A stretch of DNA of 64,000 bases from Flavobacteriales bacterium (GCA_002722245.1 PBLA01000030.1:62001-126000); one strand, 5' to 3'; shown: positions 39,878 to 62,411, counted from the first letter of the stretch. Notes: generated by a model from the letters alone, not told the origin. Numbers and translations are program-made.

Positions 39878-39898
39878 CGTTCTAGTTCTTTATTCGAT

Positions 39899-39980
39899 GC
39901 CCTGGTGGTGAAATTGGTAGACACGCAATCTTGAGGGGGTTGTGGCAACAGCCGTGCTGGTTCGAGTCCAGTCCAGGGCA
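39899..39980 (+). tRNA. tRNA-Leu (anticodon GAG)
   Basis: The acceptor stem GCCCTGG pairs with CCAGGGC, followed by discriminator A at 39980. The D-arm holds GTGAAATTGGTAGACAC, the anticodon arm CAATC-TTGAGGG-GGTTG gives anticodon GAG at 39933-39935, a class II variable arm follows, and the T-arm holds TTCGAGT. CCA is not encoded. The 14-base 3' end is repeated twice more downstream. Confidence 0.95.
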
Positions 39981-40250
39981 CATAAATAGCGACTTAGGTC
40001 GCTTTTTTTGTGGTTTGGATTAGACGAGAACCTTGGTTCGAAACGAGCATAGCGAGTTCGCGAATACCTTTTTTTTGAGGACAAATGATGAGCAATCCAG
40101 TCCAGGGCACATAAATAGCGACTTAGGTCGCTTTTTTTGTGATCTGGATTAGACGAGAACCTTGGTTCGAAACGAGCATAACGAGTTCGCGAATACCTTT
40201 TTTTGAGGACAAATGATGAGCAATCCAGTCCAGGGCACATAAATAGCGAC
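39967..40250 (+). repeat. Tandem repeats of the tRNA-Leu 3' tail plus terminator
   Basis: The 3' end of tRNA-Leu (TCCAGTCCAGGGCA) and the following terminator recur with periods of 129 and 128 bases: the shared block begins near 39967, 40096 and 40224. Each full unit holds the tRNA tail, the hairpin AGCGAC-TTAG-GTCGCT with a T run, a GAACCTTGGTTCGAAACGAG segment, an imperfect dyad GAGCATAGCGAGTT, and an AT-rich link. The third copy breaks off after AGCGACTTA, so it is partial and its terminator is lost. Two units differ at a handful of sites (for example GGTTTGG versus GATCTGG). Confidence 0.85.
39988..40009 (+). terminator. Terminator of tRNA-Leu
   Basis: AGCGAC and GTCGCT pair around TTAG and are followed by a run of T. 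A second intact copy lies at 40117-40138 inside the tandem repeat. Confidence 0.85.
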
Positions 40251-40387
40251 TTAAGTTTTTCAAATGACTTAAGGACGATATTCTTTCGTGTCGAATCATC
40301 ACAACTGTAGAAGAAAAAATGTTGGACTTAATATGGATGTCAAATAACATTTTATAGCGTGTTTTCATCATTAATTAGTACATTTAA

Positions 40388-42779: not shown

Positions 42780-43682
42780 ATGCAACAGTCAAAAGATATT
42801 TCGATAATAACTCCTGTATACAAAGCTGAAAAGATTGTTGCTGAATTGGTTGCTGAAATAATTAGGTCTATAGAACAAGAAACCTTGAACTATGAAATAA
42901 TTCTTGTAGAGGATGCCTCACCAGACGCTTCTTGGAAAGCAATACAAAATGCATGTGCCTCAAACTCAAATATTAAAGGTGTACGACTTGAAAAGAATTT
43001 TGGCCAGCATGCTGCTATTCAATGCGGTTTAGAACAGTGCGTAGGAGATTTAGTATTTGTGATGGATTGTGATTTACAACATCAACCAAGAGACTTTCAA
43101 AAATTTCTAGAATCAATAAAACGAGAGAATACAGATTTTGTAGTAGGAATTCATCAAAAGAGAAATCATTCATTTTTTAAGAATGTAATCGCTTTTATTT
43201 TTTACAAGCTATATGGTGTGTTTATCGGGGAAAATCAGGTTTCCTTTGGTAAGGAATTGAGTAATTTCACACTTCTCAAAAGAAATGTTGTGGATGAATT
43301 AGTTTTAAAGCGAAGAAAGGGGGCACATTTTTTAATGAACTTAAGAACGATAAAACAAAACTATTCTGTTGTTCATATTGAACATTCAAATCGGTTTGAG
43401 GGGAATAGTTCGTATTCTTTTATAAAACAATATAAACATGGTTTGGAGGGATTGGGAGTACATACTCATTTGGGATCTTTCAACATGATTTTTGTATTTT
43501 TTGCAGTTTTATGTCTTGGAGGAGTATTTATGATTAACAATTTCCTTTTCATCCCTGGTGTAATATTCTCATTTATAGGCTTAATTATGCTTATTTTAGC
43601 CTACTCGGTGAGGCGTTTTAATAGGATTTTGGAAAATGCTGAACCGCAACAGATTTTCAGGATTCAAGAGGTGCTTAATTAA
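42780..43682 (+). CDS. GT2 glycosyltransferase with two C-terminal membrane helices
   Basis: The GT-A fold covers residues 1-220: ISIITPVYKAEK, LVEDASPDASW, KNFGQHAAIQCGL, the metal-binding FVMDCDLQHQP (96-103). Two membrane helices (about 232-280) and a short basic tail follow. This is the ArnC/GtrB/DPM1 layout, whose members transfer a sugar from a nucleotide to polyprenyl phosphate at the cytoplasmic face. It is the first gene of a tight operon (gaps or overlaps of -4 to +2 bases onward), and its product could make the lipid-linked sugar on which the other enzymes act. Donor and acceptor cannot be read here. Confidence 0.85.
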   Translation: MQQSKDISIITPVYKAEKIVAELVAEIIRSIEQETLNYEIILVEDASPDASWKAIQNACASNSNIKGVRLEKNFGQHAAIQCGLEQCVGDLVFVMDCDLQHQPRDFQKFLESIKRENTDFVVGIHQKRNHSFFKNVIAFIFYKLYGVFIGENQVSFGKELSNFTLLKRNVVDELVLKRRKGAHFLMNLRTIKQNYSVVHIEHSNRFEGNSSYSFIKQYKHGLEGLGVHTHLGSFNMIFVFFAVLCLGGVFMINNFLFIPGVIFSFIGLIMLILAYSVRRFNRILENAEPQQIFRIQEVLN

Positions 43683-43684
43683 AC

Positions 43685-44485
43685 ATGTATTCATACGGAT
43701 TTGATAAACAAAATAAAAACCAAGAGCTAATTTCTGAGAGCTTATTCCTCAATGGGTATTATGTGTTGAAAAACGTTCTTCAGTCTGAAGAGCTAAAAGA
43801 AATTCGTGTTAAAATTGATAAGTATTTACTTCAACAAGAATCAGTATTCACCAACAGAGAATTAGAATCCATTGGAGAAGTTAATCAGTTAAGAGCTCCT
43901 ATTCAATATGATGAAGTGTTTTTAAACATTTTAATGAAACCGCAAATTATTGATTTTGTAAAAGGTCAATTAGGAGAGTACTACATACTACAGCAACAAA
44001 ACGCTGTGGTTAATCAACCCAATTCTGAGCACCATCAATCAGCTTGGCATAGAGATTTACCTTATCTGAATTTAACCAGTTCAAAATTGTTAGCGGTTAA
44101 CGCATATTTCTGTATTGATGAATTTAACCCTAGGACAGGAGCAACATTTTTTGTGCCTCATACCCACAAAGCTGATTTTTTTCCAAGTGATCAATTTTTA
44201 AAGAATAATGCAATTCAAGTGAATGCAGAAGCTGGTGATGTTATTTTGTTTGATACTATGATTATACACCGAGCAGGTGAGAATATCTCTGATTACAAAC
44301 GAAGAGGGATTAATAGTGTTTTTTCTCGATCAATAATTCGCCAGCAAATTGATTATAGTGTCCTATTAAAGGACAAGTATCAAAATCATTCTCAGGAAAT
44401 TCAGCAAATACTAGGGTTCGATTGCGCTTCACCTAGTTCTGTAAAAGAATTCCGACAAAGATTTTTATATCGTAAATCGAAATGA
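43685..44485 (+). CDS. PhyH-family Fe(II)/2-oxoglutarate dioxygenase
   Basis: The double-stranded beta-helix core is recognisable from the iron-binding WHRDLP (His122, Asp124) and the distal His195 in MIIHRAGEN, followed about 11 residues later by an Arg (206 or 207) that should bind 2-oxoglutarate. PhyH relatives hydroxylate, halogenate or desaturate small molecules. The 266-residue length is normal. It begins two bases after the GT2 gene and ends in an ATGA overlap with a second oxygenase gene. The substrate is unknown. Confidence 0.85.
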   Translation: MYSYGFDKQNKNQELISESLFLNGYYVLKNVLQSEELKEIRVKIDKYLLQQESVFTNRELESIGEVNQLRAPIQYDEVFLNILMKPQIIDFVKGQLGEYYILQQQNAVVNQPNSEHHQSAWHRDLPYLNLTSSKLLAVNAYFCIDEFNPRTGATFFVPHTHKADFFPSDQFLKNNAIQVNAEAGDVILFDTMIIHRAGENISDYKRRGINSVFSRSIIRQQIDYSVLLKDKYQNHSQEIQQILGFDCASPSSVKEFRQRFLYRKSK

Positions 44486-45252
44486 AAAAGATCATTACGG
44501 TTGAAAATATAGATCAAGTTTTTAGCGATCAATCTAGTCTTGATAGTTTGAAATCATCCATTCTTAATGATGATATCGTTATTGTAAGAGATGTGATTTC
44601 CCAAAAGTTAATTCAAGAAATCAAGGGTTATCTAACGCAGGTTGGTAAGTCCTCTTTTCCAAATTATGAACGAATAAAATTTGGAGCTAAAGACTTTCAT
44701 AGAATCAATAATAATGATCCGAGAGCTTATGTAAAAGGAGCTTTTCATCAGTTTGTTTTTTATCCTTGGAATCAGAATTATTTCGATTTATTTAATCAGT
44801 TTTCTAAGGCTTATCAGTTAAAAAATATTTTAAGTGGAATAGAACCAGACGCTTTTATGTTTCCTACAAAAGAAGATGATTTTACCGCTCGAATTGCTTT
44901 TCAATTTTATCCTAAAGGTATTGGATATTTAAACAATCATGCAGATCCTGTTGATCAGCATCAAATTGCTGTTCCTATTTTGGTTATGTCCGAAAAAGGA
45001 ATAGATTTTAATGAAGGTGGGGCGTATGTGAAATACGAGGATGAAAAGGTGTTTATAGAAGATCACACTGAAATTGGAGATGTTGTATTTTTCAAAGCTT
45101 CCTTGGAACATGGAGTTGATAAAGTTGATGTTCAAAGCGATGCTGCATGGCTTGATTTTAAAGGAAGATGGATGGGACTTTTAGCCGTGAATCAATTTTT
45201 TAATACCAATGTTATTTCAGAGTCAGTTGAATTAAAGCAAAAGAAAATATGA
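44482..45252 (+). CDS. Second putative Fe(II)/2-oxoglutarate-type oxygenase
   Basis: The 256-residue product carries an HxD...H...R layout: LNNHADPVD (His153, Asp155), SLEHGVDKV (His210) and KGRWMGL (Arg229) downstream, set in a beta-rich context (FQFYPKGIG, AVPILVMS). It is not obviously similar to the PhyH protein next to it apart from this metal site. An unusual feature is a longer N-terminal helical section with conserved-looking FGAKDFHRIN. I infer an oxygenase acting on the same product or an intermediate. It overlaps its two neighbours in ATGA junctions. Confidence 0.75.
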   Translation: MKKIITVENIDQVFSDQSSLDSLKSSILNDDIVIVRDVISQKLIQEIKGYLTQVGKSSFPNYERIKFGAKDFHRINNNDPRAYVKGAFHQFVFYPWNQNYFDLFNQFSKAYQLKNILSGIEPDAFMFPTKEDDFTARIAFQFYPKGIGYLNNHADPVDQHQIAVPILVMSEKGIDFNEGGAYVKYEDEKVFIEDHTEIGDVVFFKASLEHGVDKVDVQSDAAWLDFKGRWMGLLAVNQFFNTNVISESVELKQKKI

Positions 45253-46163
45253 TCTGGGAAAGGAGAGGTTTTATTTGTGGTCCACGAGAGGATATTTCTT
45301 GGTTAAGAAATGGTGTAAGTAGTGCAACAGTTGATGTTTTAAATGAGTCCAAAGGACTTATTAAAATATTTGTAAGTGGGAGAGATGCTCAAAATAGAAC
45401 GAATATTGGTTGTGTAGAATTCGACGTATTCAATCACTGTATTCTTGATATTCAAAAAGAACCTATTTTAAATCTTGGACCATTAGGATCTTTTGATGAA
45501 AACGGACAGTCATATCCTTTCCTCGTTAAAAATGAAAAAGAAGATTTACTTTTTTACACAGGCTGGTCTCCAAGTGTATTAACACCCTTTCAAAACTTTA
45601 TTGGCTTAGGAATAAGACCATCATTTTCTAATGATAAATTTATTCGTTATTCCAATGTCCCTGTTTTAGATCGATCAAATGAAGATTATTCCTCTACAGG
45701 GTCTTGTTGTGTATTGAGAGAACAGGGAATATACAAAATGTGGTATACCGCTTTTGAAAGATGGGAGGAACATAATGGTGCGCAAAAGCATTACTACCGT
45801 ATTAAATATGCAACTTCATTAGATGGAAGGAATTGGGAAAGATCTAATGAGGTATGTATAAATTTTAAAAATTCTGATGAATTTGCAATCTGCCGACCTG
45901 CAGTATTTAAATGGAAGGAAAAGTATCATATGCTATATTCCTACAGAGGGGTTCGATATCAATTGGGGTATGCCATTTCAGAGGATGGAATAAATTGGAA
46001 AAGGAAGGATGAACGCGTAAAATTAGAAGGTAATTCTGAAAAATGGGAAAATGAAGAAATTTGTTACCCTGCGATTTTTACAATACATAACGAAATTTAT
46101 ATGCTTTATTCTGGTAACAACTACGGTAGGGCTGGATTTGGATTAGCTAAACTTAAAGTATGA
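45249..46163 (+). CDS. Five-bladed beta-propeller glycosidase-like protein
   Basis: The 304-residue product shows repeated propeller-blade patterns of the GH43/GH32/GH130 type: FVSGRDAQNRTNIGCVEFD, LLFYTGWSPS, GSCCVLREQGIYKMWYTAFERW, RPAVFKWKEKYHMLYSYRG, ISEDGINWKRKDE and CYPAIFTIHNEIYMLYSGNNYG. There is no signal peptide, so it acts in the cytosol. Acidic catalytic residues cannot be fixed by eye. In surface-polysaccharide loci such propellers may be glycosyl transferases, phosphorylases or binding proteins instead of hydrolases, so hydrolase activity should not be assumed. It is coupled at both ends. Confidence 0.7.
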   Translation: MIWERRGFICGPREDISWLRNGVSSATVDVLNESKGLIKIFVSGRDAQNRTNIGCVEFDVFNHCILDIQKEPILNLGPLGSFDENGQSYPFLVKNEKEDLLFYTGWSPSVLTPFQNFIGLGIRPSFSNDKFIRYSNVPVLDRSNEDYSSTGSCCVLREQGIYKMWYTAFERWEEHNGAQKHYYRIKYATSLDGRNWERSNEVCINFKNSDEFAICRPAVFKWKEKYHMLYSYRGVRYQLGYAISEDGINWKRKDERVKLEGNSEKWENEEICYPAIFTIHNEIYMLYSGNNYGRAGFGLAKLKV

Positions 46164-46939
46164 TACCAATTTTCGATAGTTTAACACACCCTACGCTGGA
46201 TGGGAAATGGTTGAATAGGGATACTTTGGCGACATTTGATGATTTAAAAAGTCAAATGAAACAAGCTTATGTTCCGTTTGCTATTGCCTGTGGGATTAAC
46301 GGGAATGGGTATAATCACGAAGAGTACTTTAGTGTTTCTTCAAATGTTGACGGACTCATTCCTATTGCTCGATTAAACATGTCTGCGGATTCTTTAGAAC
46401 AAGAACTTCAACATATTTATGACATTGGTTATAAAGGCATTAAAATTCATCCAAGGTATGAGAAGTTTAATTATTCAGAAGAGAAGCTTTCAAGAGTATT
46501 TATAAAGTGTCAACAACTCGGACTTATTGTGCATTGGTGTTCATTTTATTATACAGAGATTAATAATTACCCCAGTTATGATCCTTATTTTTTAATTGTG
46601 AATGCTTTGAAAAAAGCGCCTAAATTAGATTTAGTTATTGTACATGGCGGTGTTCATGATTTACTTAAATATGCCGAGTTGGCGCGTTTTAATTCAAACA
46701 TTCTCTTGGATTTATCCTTAACATTATTTCAATATAAGGAAACAACGCATTATCAAAATATTCAATTTTTACTCAAAAAAATAGATCGAAGACTATGTCT
46801 TGGTTCTGATCATCCAGAAATTCAATTGCTTGACTTAAGAACAGAATTTGAGGAGTTTTGTAAATTAGATTTAGCCGAGGAAAAACTTTGGAATATTGCA
46901 TGTAGAAATATTGGAGCGAAATATAAAATTGAATTTTAG
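46160..46939 (+). CDS. Amidohydrolase-superfamily (TIM-barrel) metal hydrolase
   Basis: The 259-residue TIM-barrel product has the amidohydrolase_2 signature, with metal-binding candidates in FDSLTHPTLDG (His), KGIKIHPRYEKF, VHWCSFYY, IVHGGVHDLL and LCLGSDHPEIQ (Asp). The family covers decarboxylases and hydrolases of lactones, amides and C-C bonds. There is no export signal. It sits in the middle of the six-gene operon, with an ATGA junction before it and its stop overlapping the ATP-grasp gene. The exact reaction cannot be stated. Confidence 0.8.
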   Translation: MIPIFDSLTHPTLDGKWLNRDTLATFDDLKSQMKQAYVPFAIACGINGNGYNHEEYFSVSSNVDGLIPIARLNMSADSLEQELQHIYDIGYKGIKIHPRYEKFNYSEEKLSRVFIKCQQLGLIVHWCSFYYTEINNYPSYDPYFLIVNALKKAPKLDLVIVHGGVHDLLKYAELARFNSNILLDLSLTLFQYKETTHYQNIQFLLKKIDRRLCLGSDHPEIQLLDLRTEFEEFCKLDLAEEKLWNIACRNIGAKYKIEF

Positions 46940-48140
46940 TAAAACCATAGCTTTTTTAGGAGCCGCAGGTACCCAACTATCTCCTGTTCTTTATGCCAAG
47001 CAAAAAGGATATCGGATAATTACAATTGATAATAAACCCGATAATTCAGGTCATGCTCACAGTGATAAAAGTTATAATGTTAGTATAACTGCACATAGTG
47101 AGGTTTTAACTATTTGTAAGGCAGAAAAGGTAGATGCAGTCATTGGATATGCATCAGATATTGCGAGTGAGACTCAAGCATTTGTTGCTTATGAATTAGG
47201 TCTCACAGGACCTCTTATTGAAGCGAATAAAGTACTCATTAATAAATGGGAGTTTAGAAGTTTTTTAAAGGCAAAAGGACTTCAAAGTATATTTTTTCAA
47301 AAATTTGAATATACTCAATTAGAAGGGCTTCAGTTAATTTTGGAAAGTCAATTCAATAAGGAGGAGAAATTTATTATTAAACCTACTGATTCGGCAGGAT
47401 CAAAAGGGGCATATGTATTTAAATTAAAGGATTTTGCCTTAGAAAAGGCAAAACAATCTTTTTCTTTTTCTCAATCAAAGACAATAATTGTGGAATCATT
47501 CATTGATAAAAAATCTCCTCAAATATGTGGTGATGGATTTATTTTAGATGGAGAAATTCAATTTATTGATTTTGGCGATGGACACTTCCACGATTTTGAA
47601 AAATCTCCTGTTCCGTTTGGAGAAACTTTTCCAGGAAGTTATAAAAAGGAGATATATGACCAATGTCGAAACAAACTCCAAGCAATACTATCAACATTAA
47701 CCTATGAAGGACCATTTAATTTTGATATTTTCTTAACTAAAAATGGAGATATTTTCATTAATGAAATTGGACCAAGAAGTGGTGGTAATTATATTCCAGA
47801 TGTTTTGGGAATAAAGAATGGATTTGACTTTGTGGGTCAAATAGTGGAGTTTTATTTGGGAAATTCACCTGTATTTGCAAGTATAAATAATCAAAATAAT
47901 ATAGCTTCTTACATGATTCATTCAGCATCAGATGGATTGTTAAATAAAGTGGATGTTGTTGAACCCGAAGGGATGCATGTGCTAAGTAAAAAAGTGTTTA
48001 TAAAAGAGAACGACTCTATTTTTAAGTTTATTTCAGGAAATCACACGATTGGCAATTTATTACTTCAGTTTGACTCAAAATCAACCATGCTAAACTGTTT
48101 TAAGAGTTTAAACGAGCATGTTACTATCACGTATAAATAA
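46929..48140 (+). CDS. ATP-grasp carboxylate-amine ligase-like protein
   Basis: The ~403-residue product opens with an IAFLGAAGTQLSPVLYAKQKG Rossmann-like segment, then the ATP-grasp fold: KFIIKPTDSAGSKGAYVF (glycine-rich loop), IIVESFIDKKSPQICG and FNFDIFLTKNGDIFINEIGPRSGGN, the last with the typical metal-binding ExGPRxGG pattern. ATP-grasp enzymes join a carboxylate to an amine or thiol through an acyl phosphate. The start is uncertain: no ATG is present, and TTG at 46929, overlapping the amidohydrolase end by 11 bases, is the most likely; TTG at 46911 or 46896 are alternatives. It is the last gene of the operon. Confidence 0.8.
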   Translation: MNFSKTIAFLGAAGTQLSPVLYAKQKGYRIITIDNKPDNSGHAHSDKSYNVSITAHSEVLTICKAEKVDAVIGYASDIASETQAFVAYELGLTGPLIEANKVLINKWEFRSFLKAKGLQSIFFQKFEYTQLEGLQLILESQFNKEEKFIIKPTDSAGSKGAYVFKLKDFALEKAKQSFSFSQSKTIIVESFIDKKSPQICGDGFILDGEIQFIDFGDGHFHDFEKSPVPFGETFPGSYKKEIYDQCRNKLQAILSTLTYEGPFNFDIFLTKNGDIFINEIGPRSGGNYIPDVLGIKNGFDFVGQIVEFYLGNSPVFASINNQNNIASYMIHSASDGLLNKVDVVEPEGMHVLSKKVFIKENDSIFKFISGNHTIGNLLLQFDSKSTMLNCFKSLNEHVTITYK

Positions 48141-60764: not shown

Positions 60765-62411
60765 CTAAACAAGAAATTCTTCAAAAGAAATCCAGCCTTT
60801 CCGCTGATACGTCATCTGAGGTAGTTCAGGGAATTTATCTGGTTTTAATGCGCTTTCTATGAATTTAATCAACTCATCTTTAGAAGTTAGATTCTCACGC
60901 GCTACAATTGCTTTCGCTTCATTATAACTCATGAAGGATCTTCTTTCTTTTCGATGTTTATCACTCCAAAGGAAATCTTTAAATCCTTTCCAACCTTTTT
61001 TCTCGTATTTACGAACAACATTTGAGGGGATGTCATTAGGTTTGGGAGGGAGATGTTCGTATTCGCCTTTACAATAGGCAACCCATTCCACTGAGCTCGT
61101 TAAGCCAAGTTGGCGAACAAATTTTCTAGCTTCAGTAAATTTTCTATACTCAAAGTGAGCGTATGGAAAAGCTTCTGACCCTATCCAGTCTCCAATTCCT
61201 ATCCAGCCTTTATCCTTATACACACCTGAAGGATTAGCAGGTATATCTTCTGGTTTTTCAGGTAGATGATTGAAGTTTCCAGAAATATAGTTATGCCAAT
61301 CACTGTAATTTTTAAGTCCTAATTGATGAACAAATTTTTTTGCTTCCTCATAAGGTCTAAACTTGCTATACTTTTGACGATGAATATTCGATTGGAGGAA
61401 GTCTTTGTATCCACACCATCCGTCATCTGCATATTTTCTGGCCACATTGGTGGGTATGTCTTCGGGTTTCTCTGGAAGATGAGGAAACTCTCCTTTGCAA
61501 TAAGCAATCCATTTTTCAGAGGAAGTAAGACCTAATTCTCGCACAAATTCTCTCGCACTTTCAAAAGGGCGATATTTTCTTTTAAATGGGGCTATTGTAT
61601 ATGTTCCAAACCAATCTCCATATCCGTTCCAACCGTGGCCTTTGTAAACTAACTCAGGCGAATTTGGAATATCTTGAGGTTTTGGTTTTTGTCCTGGAAG
61701 TTCATTCTTAACATACTTTAACCACTCCTTGAGGTTTTTAATACCAAGACTATGTACAAAAGCTCTTGCTTCATTGAATTCTCTAGCATTGTTTAACCTT
61801 CTCACTCTTCGGTGTTCTTTTGCATTTAAGAAATCATTCATACCGTTCCACCCGATATCCCTATATTTTCTAGCAACGTTAGTGGGGATGTCATCCGGTT
61901 TTGGGGGTAAATGACTAATTTCTCCCTTGCAATATTTTAACCAATATTCCGATGATGTTAAACCTAAACCTCTTGCAAATTCTCGAGCTTCTTTAAAATC
62001 TCTGTAGTTGTTATTCAACTTTAGGTTTTCAGTACCGAGCCAGTCATTGTATCCCGACCATCCACTATTTTTATAGTAAATGTGTGGGGAGGACGGAATT
62101 TCAGGTGGCTTTAATCCAAATTCATTGGGATTCCAATTACACCATTTTTTCCATTCTGAGGTGCTTTTAAATTTTTTATTTCTTACAATTTTTTTTGCTT
62201 CTTCGAATGAAAGAAAAGGAACTTTTTCGTGGTTTCCTAGCCAATGTTTCCATCCATTCCAGGCTTTATAGACTTCATCAGGATTAACCGGGATGTCATC
62301 AGGTTTTAAATTGTCAATGGATGAGTAAACAACCCATTCATAGCGATTTCTAAGGCCTAGTTTCAAAGCAAATTCTCTAGCTTTATTGAAGCTACGGAAT
62401 TTTCTATTCAT
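60765..62411 (-). CDS. Protein with eight INT_rpt (phage-integrase repeat) units
   Basis: The 548-residue product consists of eight ~57-63-residue repeats starting near residues 4, 65, 136, 209, 279, 350, 422 and 492. Each reads roughly FxEAREFxRxLGLxSxxEWxxYxKG...P.KPxDIPxNPxxVYKxxGWxGxxDWLGT. This is the pattern of Pfam INT_rpt, named from repeats in some tyrosine integrases. No catalytic domain, signal or membrane segment is present. Repeats at 136, 279 and 422 are one subtype (LTSS, YCKGE, NVARKY, DFL then HR); those at 209 and 350 are another (VYKxxGW, GDW). Thus the protein grew by duplicating a two-repeat unit. Function is unknown, possibly DNA or protein binding. Confidence 0.85.
   Translation of the reverse strand: MNRKFRSFNKAREFALKLGLRNRYEWVVYSSIDNLKPDDIPVNPDEVYKAWNGWKHWLGNHEKVPFLSFEEAKKIVRNKKFKSTSEWKKWCNWNPNEFGLKPPEIPSSPHIYYKNSGWSGYNDWLGTENLKLNNNYRDFKEAREFARGLGLTSSEYWLKYCKGEISHLPPKPDDIPTNVARKYRDIGWNGMNDFLNAKEHRRVRRLNNAREFNEARAFVHSLGIKNLKEWLKYVKNELPGQKPKPQDIPNSPELVYKGHGWNGYGDWFGTYTIAPFKRKYRPFESAREFVRELGLTSSEKWIAYCKGEFPHLPEKPEDIPTNVARKYADDGWCGYKDFLQSNIHRQKYSKFRPYEEAKKFVHQLGLKNYSDWHNYISGNFNHLPEKPEDIPANPSGVYKDKGWIGIGDWIGSEAFPYAHFEYRKFTEARKFVRQLGLTSSVEWVAYCKGEYEHLPPKPNDIPSNVVRKYEKKGWKGFKDFLWSDKHRKERRSFMSYNEAKAIVARENLTSKDELIKFIESALKPDKFPELPQMTYQRKGWISFEEFLV

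Follow-up and report, generated by a model that had tools for sequence, protein, structure and literature searches.

A six-gene operon of a Flavobacteriales genome as a putative tailoring module for a 4-amino-4,6-dideoxysugar of surface glycans

Introduction

The Arn pathway (ArnB-ArnC-ArnD-ArnE/F-ArnT), which yields polyprenyl-linked 4-amino-arabinose, resembles in outline a six-gene operon that we analysed at positions 42780-48140 of a 64,000-nucleotide stretch of a Flavobacteriales bacterium genome (GCA_002722245.1, PBLA01000030.1:62001-126000; G000:C33:62001-126000 in our numbering; 3.0 Mb in 34 contigs). This whole stretch is called the window. The operon encodes a GT2 glycosyltransferase, two Fe(II)/2-oxoglutarate (2OG) oxygenases, a five-bladed propeller, an amidohydrolase and an ATP-grasp ligase. 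On balance, we think that these genes form an accessory module, which tailors a surface-glycan sugar, a polyprenyl-linked 4-amino-4,6-dideoxyhexose of the Fuc4N type. The likeness to Arn lies in a 4-amino sugar transaminase, an ArnC-like GT2 and, in Hyella and some plasmid loci, an SMR flippase-like protein. However, the transaminase found with the module is WecE instead of ArnB, and the window GT2 is not an ArnC equivalog (100 bits against a cut-off of 529 for NCBIfam PRK10714). Arn also lacks counterparts of the ATP-grasp ligase, the two oxygenases, the amidohydrolase and the propeller.

Three other systems share single features with the operon. In the synthesis of enterobacterial common antigen, deoxythymidine diphosphate (dTDP)-linked Fuc4N made by WecE is subsequently N-acylated by WecD, which acetylates it using acetyl-CoA, whereas in the module an ATP-grasp enzyme and oxidising enzymes occupy the place of WecD. 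The viosamine island of Pseudomonas syringae (vioA, B, M, R, S, T, acp) likewise places a hydroxylated acyl group on a dTDP-4-amino-4,6-dideoxyhexose, and the sugar decorates a surface protein glycan (PMC3927599), but VioB adds the acyl chain, which is made on an acyl carrier protein, and none of the seven genes encodes an ATP-grasp enzyme or a 2OG oxygenase. In Shewanella oneidensis, the sfmABCDE genes include an ATP-grasp ligase gene that affects flagellin glycan mass and is needed for the full glycan (PMC3765264); that system is based on nonulosonic acid, and oxygenase, propeller and amidohydrolase genes are absent from it.

Results and discussion

Recurrence of the gene set with WecE

All six open reading frames (ORFs) are intact and lie on one strand. 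The packing matches that described in the original prediction, with a gap of 2 bases between the GT2 and PhyH genes, ATGA overlaps at 44482, 45249 and 46160, and an overlap of the last pair. The ATP-grasp ORF has no ATG close to its 5' end; we propose TTG 46929 (alternatives 46911 and 46896) as its start, which overlaps the amidohydrolase stop.

A core comprising the second oxygenase (P0003 type), the propeller, the amidohydrolase and the ATP-grasp ligase recurs in seven loci of other genomes, namely two from Flavobacteriales and one each from the cyanobacterium Hyella, Halomonas, another genome of the Halomonas order, an alphaproteobacterial plasmid and a planctomycete contig (Table 1). Conservation of the gene set beyond the genus had been named in advance as the check on whether the genes form one co-expressed system, and this distribution over several phyla argues that they do. 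Five loci, one of them that of class member G167 (whose amidohydrolase is 43% identical to that of the window), were found when 85,000 species genomes were scanned with an oxygenase profile, and L073 and L044 came from a genome search and a plasmid search, respectively. The oxygenase family occurs in ~1% or less of the sampled genomes (340-395 genomes in each of three groups) and is thus rare and scattered; for the window ATP-grasp ligase and amidohydrolase, the same-genus and same-family genomes sampled contain no close relative. With the window counted, the oxygenase is accompanied by the propeller, the amidohydrolase and the ATP-grasp ligase in 7/8 loci each (L025 is truncated), by GT2 in 5/8 and by WecE in 7/8, the exception being the window. 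The propeller gene is within 10 kb of the oxygenase gene in four genomes, for which a simple density estimate gives a chance probability of ~4e-10.

All seven other loci carry WecE/RffA, the dTDP-4-amino-4,6-dideoxygalactose transaminase, within ~10 kb of the core. The flanking DegT-family proteins of L017, L021, L022, L024 and L025 exceed the cut-offs of TIGR02379 and NF008687 (495-629 bits against 435), and the transaminase flanking L044 is annotated rffA. Several of the loci adjoin lipopolysaccharide or capsule genes: an ABC exporter of the Wzm/Wzt type follows the module in L022, and L024 and L073 adjoin polysaccharide-export genes of the Wza/Wzc type (gene types as read from the sequences). 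The operon had been thought to match no pathway that could be named. This is not quite right, since the gene set stands repeatedly with wecE/rffA and surface-glycan genes, and on that ground we assign it to the tailoring of 4-amino-4,6-dideoxysugars. Guilt-by-association of the set with surface amino-sugar loci appears good, and the set itself seems previously undescribed; an open-access literature search found no published description of the gene combination.

The window genome, searched by family and by protein, has eight DegT-family matches. One of them (C29:137445), on another contig than the operon, is 50-62% identical to the WecE proteins of module loci (60-62% to the L022 and L017 copies) and adjoins genes for WbqC, a formyltransferase and an ABC exporter, which points to a locus of the O-antigen type. 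The operon would act on the product of this distant WecE.

Several observations weigh against our interpretation. The window operon itself has no adjacent WecE, flippase or other glycan genes; no flippase or GT-C transferase was recognised among the window ORFs neighbouring it, and SMR proteins are found only in relatives. WecE-type homologs may also differ in the 4-epimer that they make. The window ATP-grasp ligase is just 17-21% identical to those of the core loci, so its substrate or even its role may differ, and is 31% identical to that of L078, a locus beside flagellin genes. Further, the L017 genome has no propeller at all, a GT2 relative was not found near the core in L024, L044 and L073, and few loci carry PhyH.

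An alternative is a module that makes or modifies another surface sugar, such as a nonulosonic acid or a diamino uronic acid, with wecE only a frequent neighbour in variable glycan loci. NeuB- and SpsF-like genes also occur in L017, L078 has a different DegT protein (only 27% identical), and the window operon lacks an adjoining WecE. We regard this alternative as unlikely, however, as a random glycan neighbour would hardly stay so close to the core in 7/7 other loci from several phyla.

Table 1. Genes of the window operon, gene order of the related loci and positions of further features
Feature	Position	Strand	Basis or content
GT2, polyprenyl-phosphate sugar transferase type (ArnC/GtrB-like)	42780..43682	+	Pfam; two C-terminal membrane segments
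PhyH-family Fe(II)/2OG oxygenase (P0002)	43685..44485	+	Pfam; H122xD124, H195, R206
Second Fe(II)/2OG oxygenase (P0003), core gene	44482..45252	+	Own family, no Pfam model above cut-off
Five-bladed propeller (P0004), distant GH130 relative, core gene	45249..46163	+	Blade order permuted vs GH130 structures
Amidohydrolase-superfamily TIM barrel (P0005), core gene	46160..46939	+	Altered metal site: first His of HxH lost
Probable ATP-grasp carboxylate-amine ligase (P0006), core function	46929..48140	+	Longest frame from 46896; sequence diverges between loci
L021, Hyella patelloides			WecE, GT2, beta-lactamase-like, ATP-grasp, amidohydrolase, PhyH, oxygenase, propeller, EamA/SMR, large membrane protein
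L022, Flavobacteriales			Membrane protein, oxygenase, ATP-grasp, HMGL aldolase, 322-aa protein, GT2, propeller, amidohydrolase, WecE, ABC exporter
L017 (= L023 locus)			Gene order as L022 minus propeller
L024, Halomonas denitrificans			WecE, ATP-grasp, amidohydrolase, oxygenase, propeller, second oxygenase
L025, planctomycete contig, 4.9 kb, truncated			WecE, oxygenase, GT2, hexapeptide acetyltransferase, propeller
L044, Pseudoroseomonas plasmid			rffA, then HMGL, propeller, amidohydrolase, oxygenase, ATP-grasp
L073, Halomonas order			ATP-grasp, amidohydrolase, beta-lactamase-like, oxygenase, propeller, second oxygenase, further on WecE
Protein of 313-322 amino acids (aa)	L022:13000-13968; L017:10331-11272
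Beta-lactamase-like serine hydrolase	L021:5766-6869; L073:8754-9770
Sister oxygenase subfamily	L024:11747-12535; L073:11612-12403; L074:7240-8124; L075:9340-10104
Flagellin-adjacent locus	L078:151-15922
Brachyspira hyodysenteriae rfb plasmid	L093:4069-14847
tRNA-Leu(gag) and tandem repeats	39899-40256
Mechanical ORF in the repeats	39890-40240
548-aa repeat ORF	60765-62411

Protein families

The families named at the outset hold up for GT2, PhyH and Amidohydro_2, which all exceed their cut-offs. GT2 scores 104 bits against a Pfam cut-off of 23.3, its membrane segments being two hydrophobic stretches, and has relatives of 20-33% identity in L017, L021, L022, L025, L045 and L051. P0002 scores 88 bits against 22 with PhyH and has the four residues expected of a PhyH-type Fe/2OG oxygenase. 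P0003 falls below every Pfam cut-off (best 16.9 against 27), and its assignment to the Fe/2OG oxygenases comes from motif and fold. H153xD155, H210 and R229 are invariant across 11 aligned proteins of the family and its sister family, and the predicted model, of moderate confidence overall and low confidence locally at 153-157, matches Fe/2OG oxygenases including AndA/OkaE (E 8e-9, template modelling score only ~0.4). It thus combines the conserved HxD...H...R with the double-stranded beta-helix fold of this superfamily.

The description of the propeller as glycosidase-like stands for its sequence similarity to GH130 (Pfam PF04041, 35 bits against 26, split over two partial stretches), a family that includes mannoside phosphorylases. 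Its function is another matter. The alignment with the GH130 structures 9fj8 and 7fip is permuted in order and not collinear over the full length, and the score is below every GH130 equivalog cut-off. In place of the EDP(R) segment of GH130, which carries the catalytic Asp, it has [R/K/H]P, with ED replaced by CR, CK, CH or SK. Since this signature is lacking, a phosphorylase or glycosidase role is doubtful, and the protein probably does not function as a GH130 enzyme.

The amidohydrolase scores 42 bits against 26.4 with Amidohydro_2, and its model (predicted local distance difference test score 87.5) is a TIM barrel with 3irs as top fold match. DSLTH or DSLSH stands where the HxH metal motif is expected after strand 1, while H10, H97, H162 and D217 are invariant in aligned relatives. 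Given the lost first His, the enzyme is likely to have an altered metal site or to work without a metal; since lactonases and dihydroorotases are among the fold neighbours, ring opening or closing is our best guess.

The ATP-grasp ligase scores 28.5 bits against 27 with PylC-like_N and falls just short with the ATP-grasp model (23.3 against 27). Across loci, identity to the window proteins is 26-48% for the core oxygenase, propeller and amidohydrolase, compared with the much lower values for the ATP-grasp ligase given above, a pattern consistent with a sugar that stays the same and an acyl donor that varies. The PDB matches of the ligase are 4dim, 4wd3 and 3vot. That PDB relatives are L-amino-acid ligases and natural-product oxygenases, and that natural-product clusters often contain ATP-grasp amino-acid ligases and PhyH oxygenases, would suit an operon building a secreted small molecule (a peptide-like or glycosylated natural product) rather than part of a surface glycan. 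We consider this improbable, because the relatives adjoin polysaccharide exporters and enzymes, the window has a GT2 of the polyprenyl type, and no carrier protein, condensation domain or dedicated exporter was found among the ORFs neighbouring the operon.

Proposed pathway

Part of the chemistry is established at the level of families. WecE makes dTDP-4-amino-4,6-dideoxyhexose, ArnC/GtrB-type GT2 enzymes load polyprenyl phosphate, ATP-grasp enzymes of the PylC/L-amino-acid-ligase type couple carboxylates to amines, and PhyH-type enzymes hydroxylate. The substrate, the order of reactions and the reaction of each enzyme given below are our proposal. WecE, encoded on another contig, would supply the dTDP-4-amino sugar, and the ATP-grasp ligase would couple a carboxylic or amino acid to its 4-amino group. 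The two oxygenases might then hydroxylate the acyl group or the sugar, the amidohydrolase might close, open or trim an amide or lactone of the substituent, and the propeller might bind or process a sugar intermediate. GT2 would transfer the finished sugar to polyprenyl phosphate; after flipping, the lipid-linked sugar would be incorporated into a surface polymer such as O-antigen or capsule. The earlier guess of a lipid-linked sugar that is oxidised and amidated thus remains a fair one. In some loci, an aldolase of the 4-hydroxy-2-oxovalerate type is also encoded and could be the source of the acid.

Such acylation has precedents: the known acyl substituents of Qui4N include formyl, N-acetylglycyl and hydroxybutyryl-alanyl groups, and a Qui2NAc4N bearing a dihydroxyhexanoyl group is on record (PMC3210612). 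A bolder and speculative idea, which we hold only tentatively, is that the N-acylated 4-amino-4,6-dideoxysugars made by this widespread mobile module form a chemically new class. With the sugar linked to a nucleotide or a lipid, the ATP-grasp ligase would attach the acid, the two oxygenases would hydroxylate it there and the divergent amidohydrolase would cyclise it to a lactam or lactone, with the propeller repurposed from glycosidases as a carrier or transferase. The association ties several hypothetical proteins (a non-canonical propeller, a divergent amidohydrolase and an oxygenase of a new family) to one sugar, Fuc4N or an epimer, in environmental bacteria of several phyla. Such sugar substituents can affect antigenicity, phage binding and symbiosis.

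Chromosomal position

The operon lies between tRNA-Leu(gag) and tRNA-Ser(tga), in an interval whose further contents are a TonB receptor gene, a DUF2306 gene and an additional ORF. The flanks match those in the same-genus genome G003, where purB, two homologs, tRNA-Leu(gag), a single unrelated SDR-like gene, tRNA-Ser(tga), and a peptidase gene with the genes following it succeed one another (purB, SDR and peptidase are our readings of the sequences). The same flanks with different content indicate that the interval is variable and that the operon was gained there as cargo; the gene set is apparently mobile. Its guanine-cytosine content (0.31-0.34) is similar to that of the flanks, and base composition across operon and flanks gave no sign of foreign DNA. 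A promoter scan did no better than shuffled sequences, and the longest terminator-like stems are within the ATP-grasp gene.

This position, and the lack of a flippase and WecE in the operon, would also be expected of an orphan passenger acquired without its partners and yielding no product in this host. We think this quite improbable, as none of the six frames is broken, the catalytic motifs are preserved, and the genome has a close WecE and an exporter locus of the O-antigen type.

The TonB receptor gene is on the same strand and ends exactly 67 bases upstream of GT2, as reported earlier, but its proposed significance as a neighbour does not stand. The orthologs in two same-genus genomes (G003 and G002) are elsewhere, beside a queA-like gene and with no operon, so the neighbourhood is local, and we rejected TonB as an operon partner on this synteny. 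The same evidence bears on an uptake and breakdown operon, in which TonB would import a glycoconjugate for degradation by the propeller, amidohydrolase and oxygenases. The proximity of the TonB gene and the glycosidase-like and hydrolase-like members agree with such a function; it is nevertheless highly improbable, since no TonB gene was noted beside the module in the loci read, and GT2 and ATP-grasp are synthetic enzymes.

Wider context and further observations

Single members of the module extend to plasmids. The propeller family occurs on Rhizobium, Neorhizobium, Peteryoungia, Azospirillum and Bernardetia plasmids beside genes for WbqC, GT2, acetyltransferases, methyltransferases and EamA/SMR proteins, several times together with rffA. 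Used as independent queries, P0002 and P0004 converge on the same Neorhizobium and Rhizobium plasmids, where the closest plasmid relatives of P0002 are adjacent to, or ~20 kb from, the propeller gene; P0003 and P0005 likewise converge on the same Pseudoroseomonas plasmid. PhyH relatives adjoin the propeller in Hyella L021 and Neorhizobium L051, and L021 has all six window families, WecE and an EamA/SMR protein of ArnE/F size. A viral or phage origin of the module was rejected: no amidohydrolase relative was confirmed in viral contigs and phage records gave no P0003 match.

The window ATP-grasp ligase has a second relative of 31% identity on the Brachyspira hyodysenteriae rfb plasmid, where this P0006-type gene adjoins a radical SAM/SPASM gene and three ATP-grasp amidoligase genes, a set that suggests an aminoacylated O-antigen. 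L078 contains flagellin, FliD-like and FliS-like genes, then WbqC, the propeller, a P0003-like oxygenase split over two frames, a P0006-type ATP-grasp gene and a PLP-synthase-like gene.

Among the accessory genes, a conserved protein of 313-322 aa is encoded between the aldolase and GT2 in L022 and L017; neither copy has a Pfam match, and that of L022 has no NCBIfam match. A beta-lactamase-like serine hydrolase (53% identical between L021 and L073) is common to the cyanobacterial and gammaproteobacterial versions of the module. The sister oxygenase subfamily, with identities of 45-67% among its L024, L073 and L074 members and ~20-25% to P0003, also occurs with SMR, GT2 or WbqC genes. Weak oxygenase matches in L075-L077 and L079 were left uncounted, as they either fall in another subfamily or miss most core genes.

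In the window, tRNA-Leu(gag) is followed by tandem repeats of 128-129 nucleotides that carry its 3' end in three partial copies, and one mechanically called ORF consists of these repeats, which are a possible trace of integration events. A 548-aa ORF further downstream contains several repeats of the unit 'AREFVRxLGLTSSxEW...KPxDIPxNVxRKYxxxGW' and presumably resembles the integrase-repeat proteins of marine bacteria.

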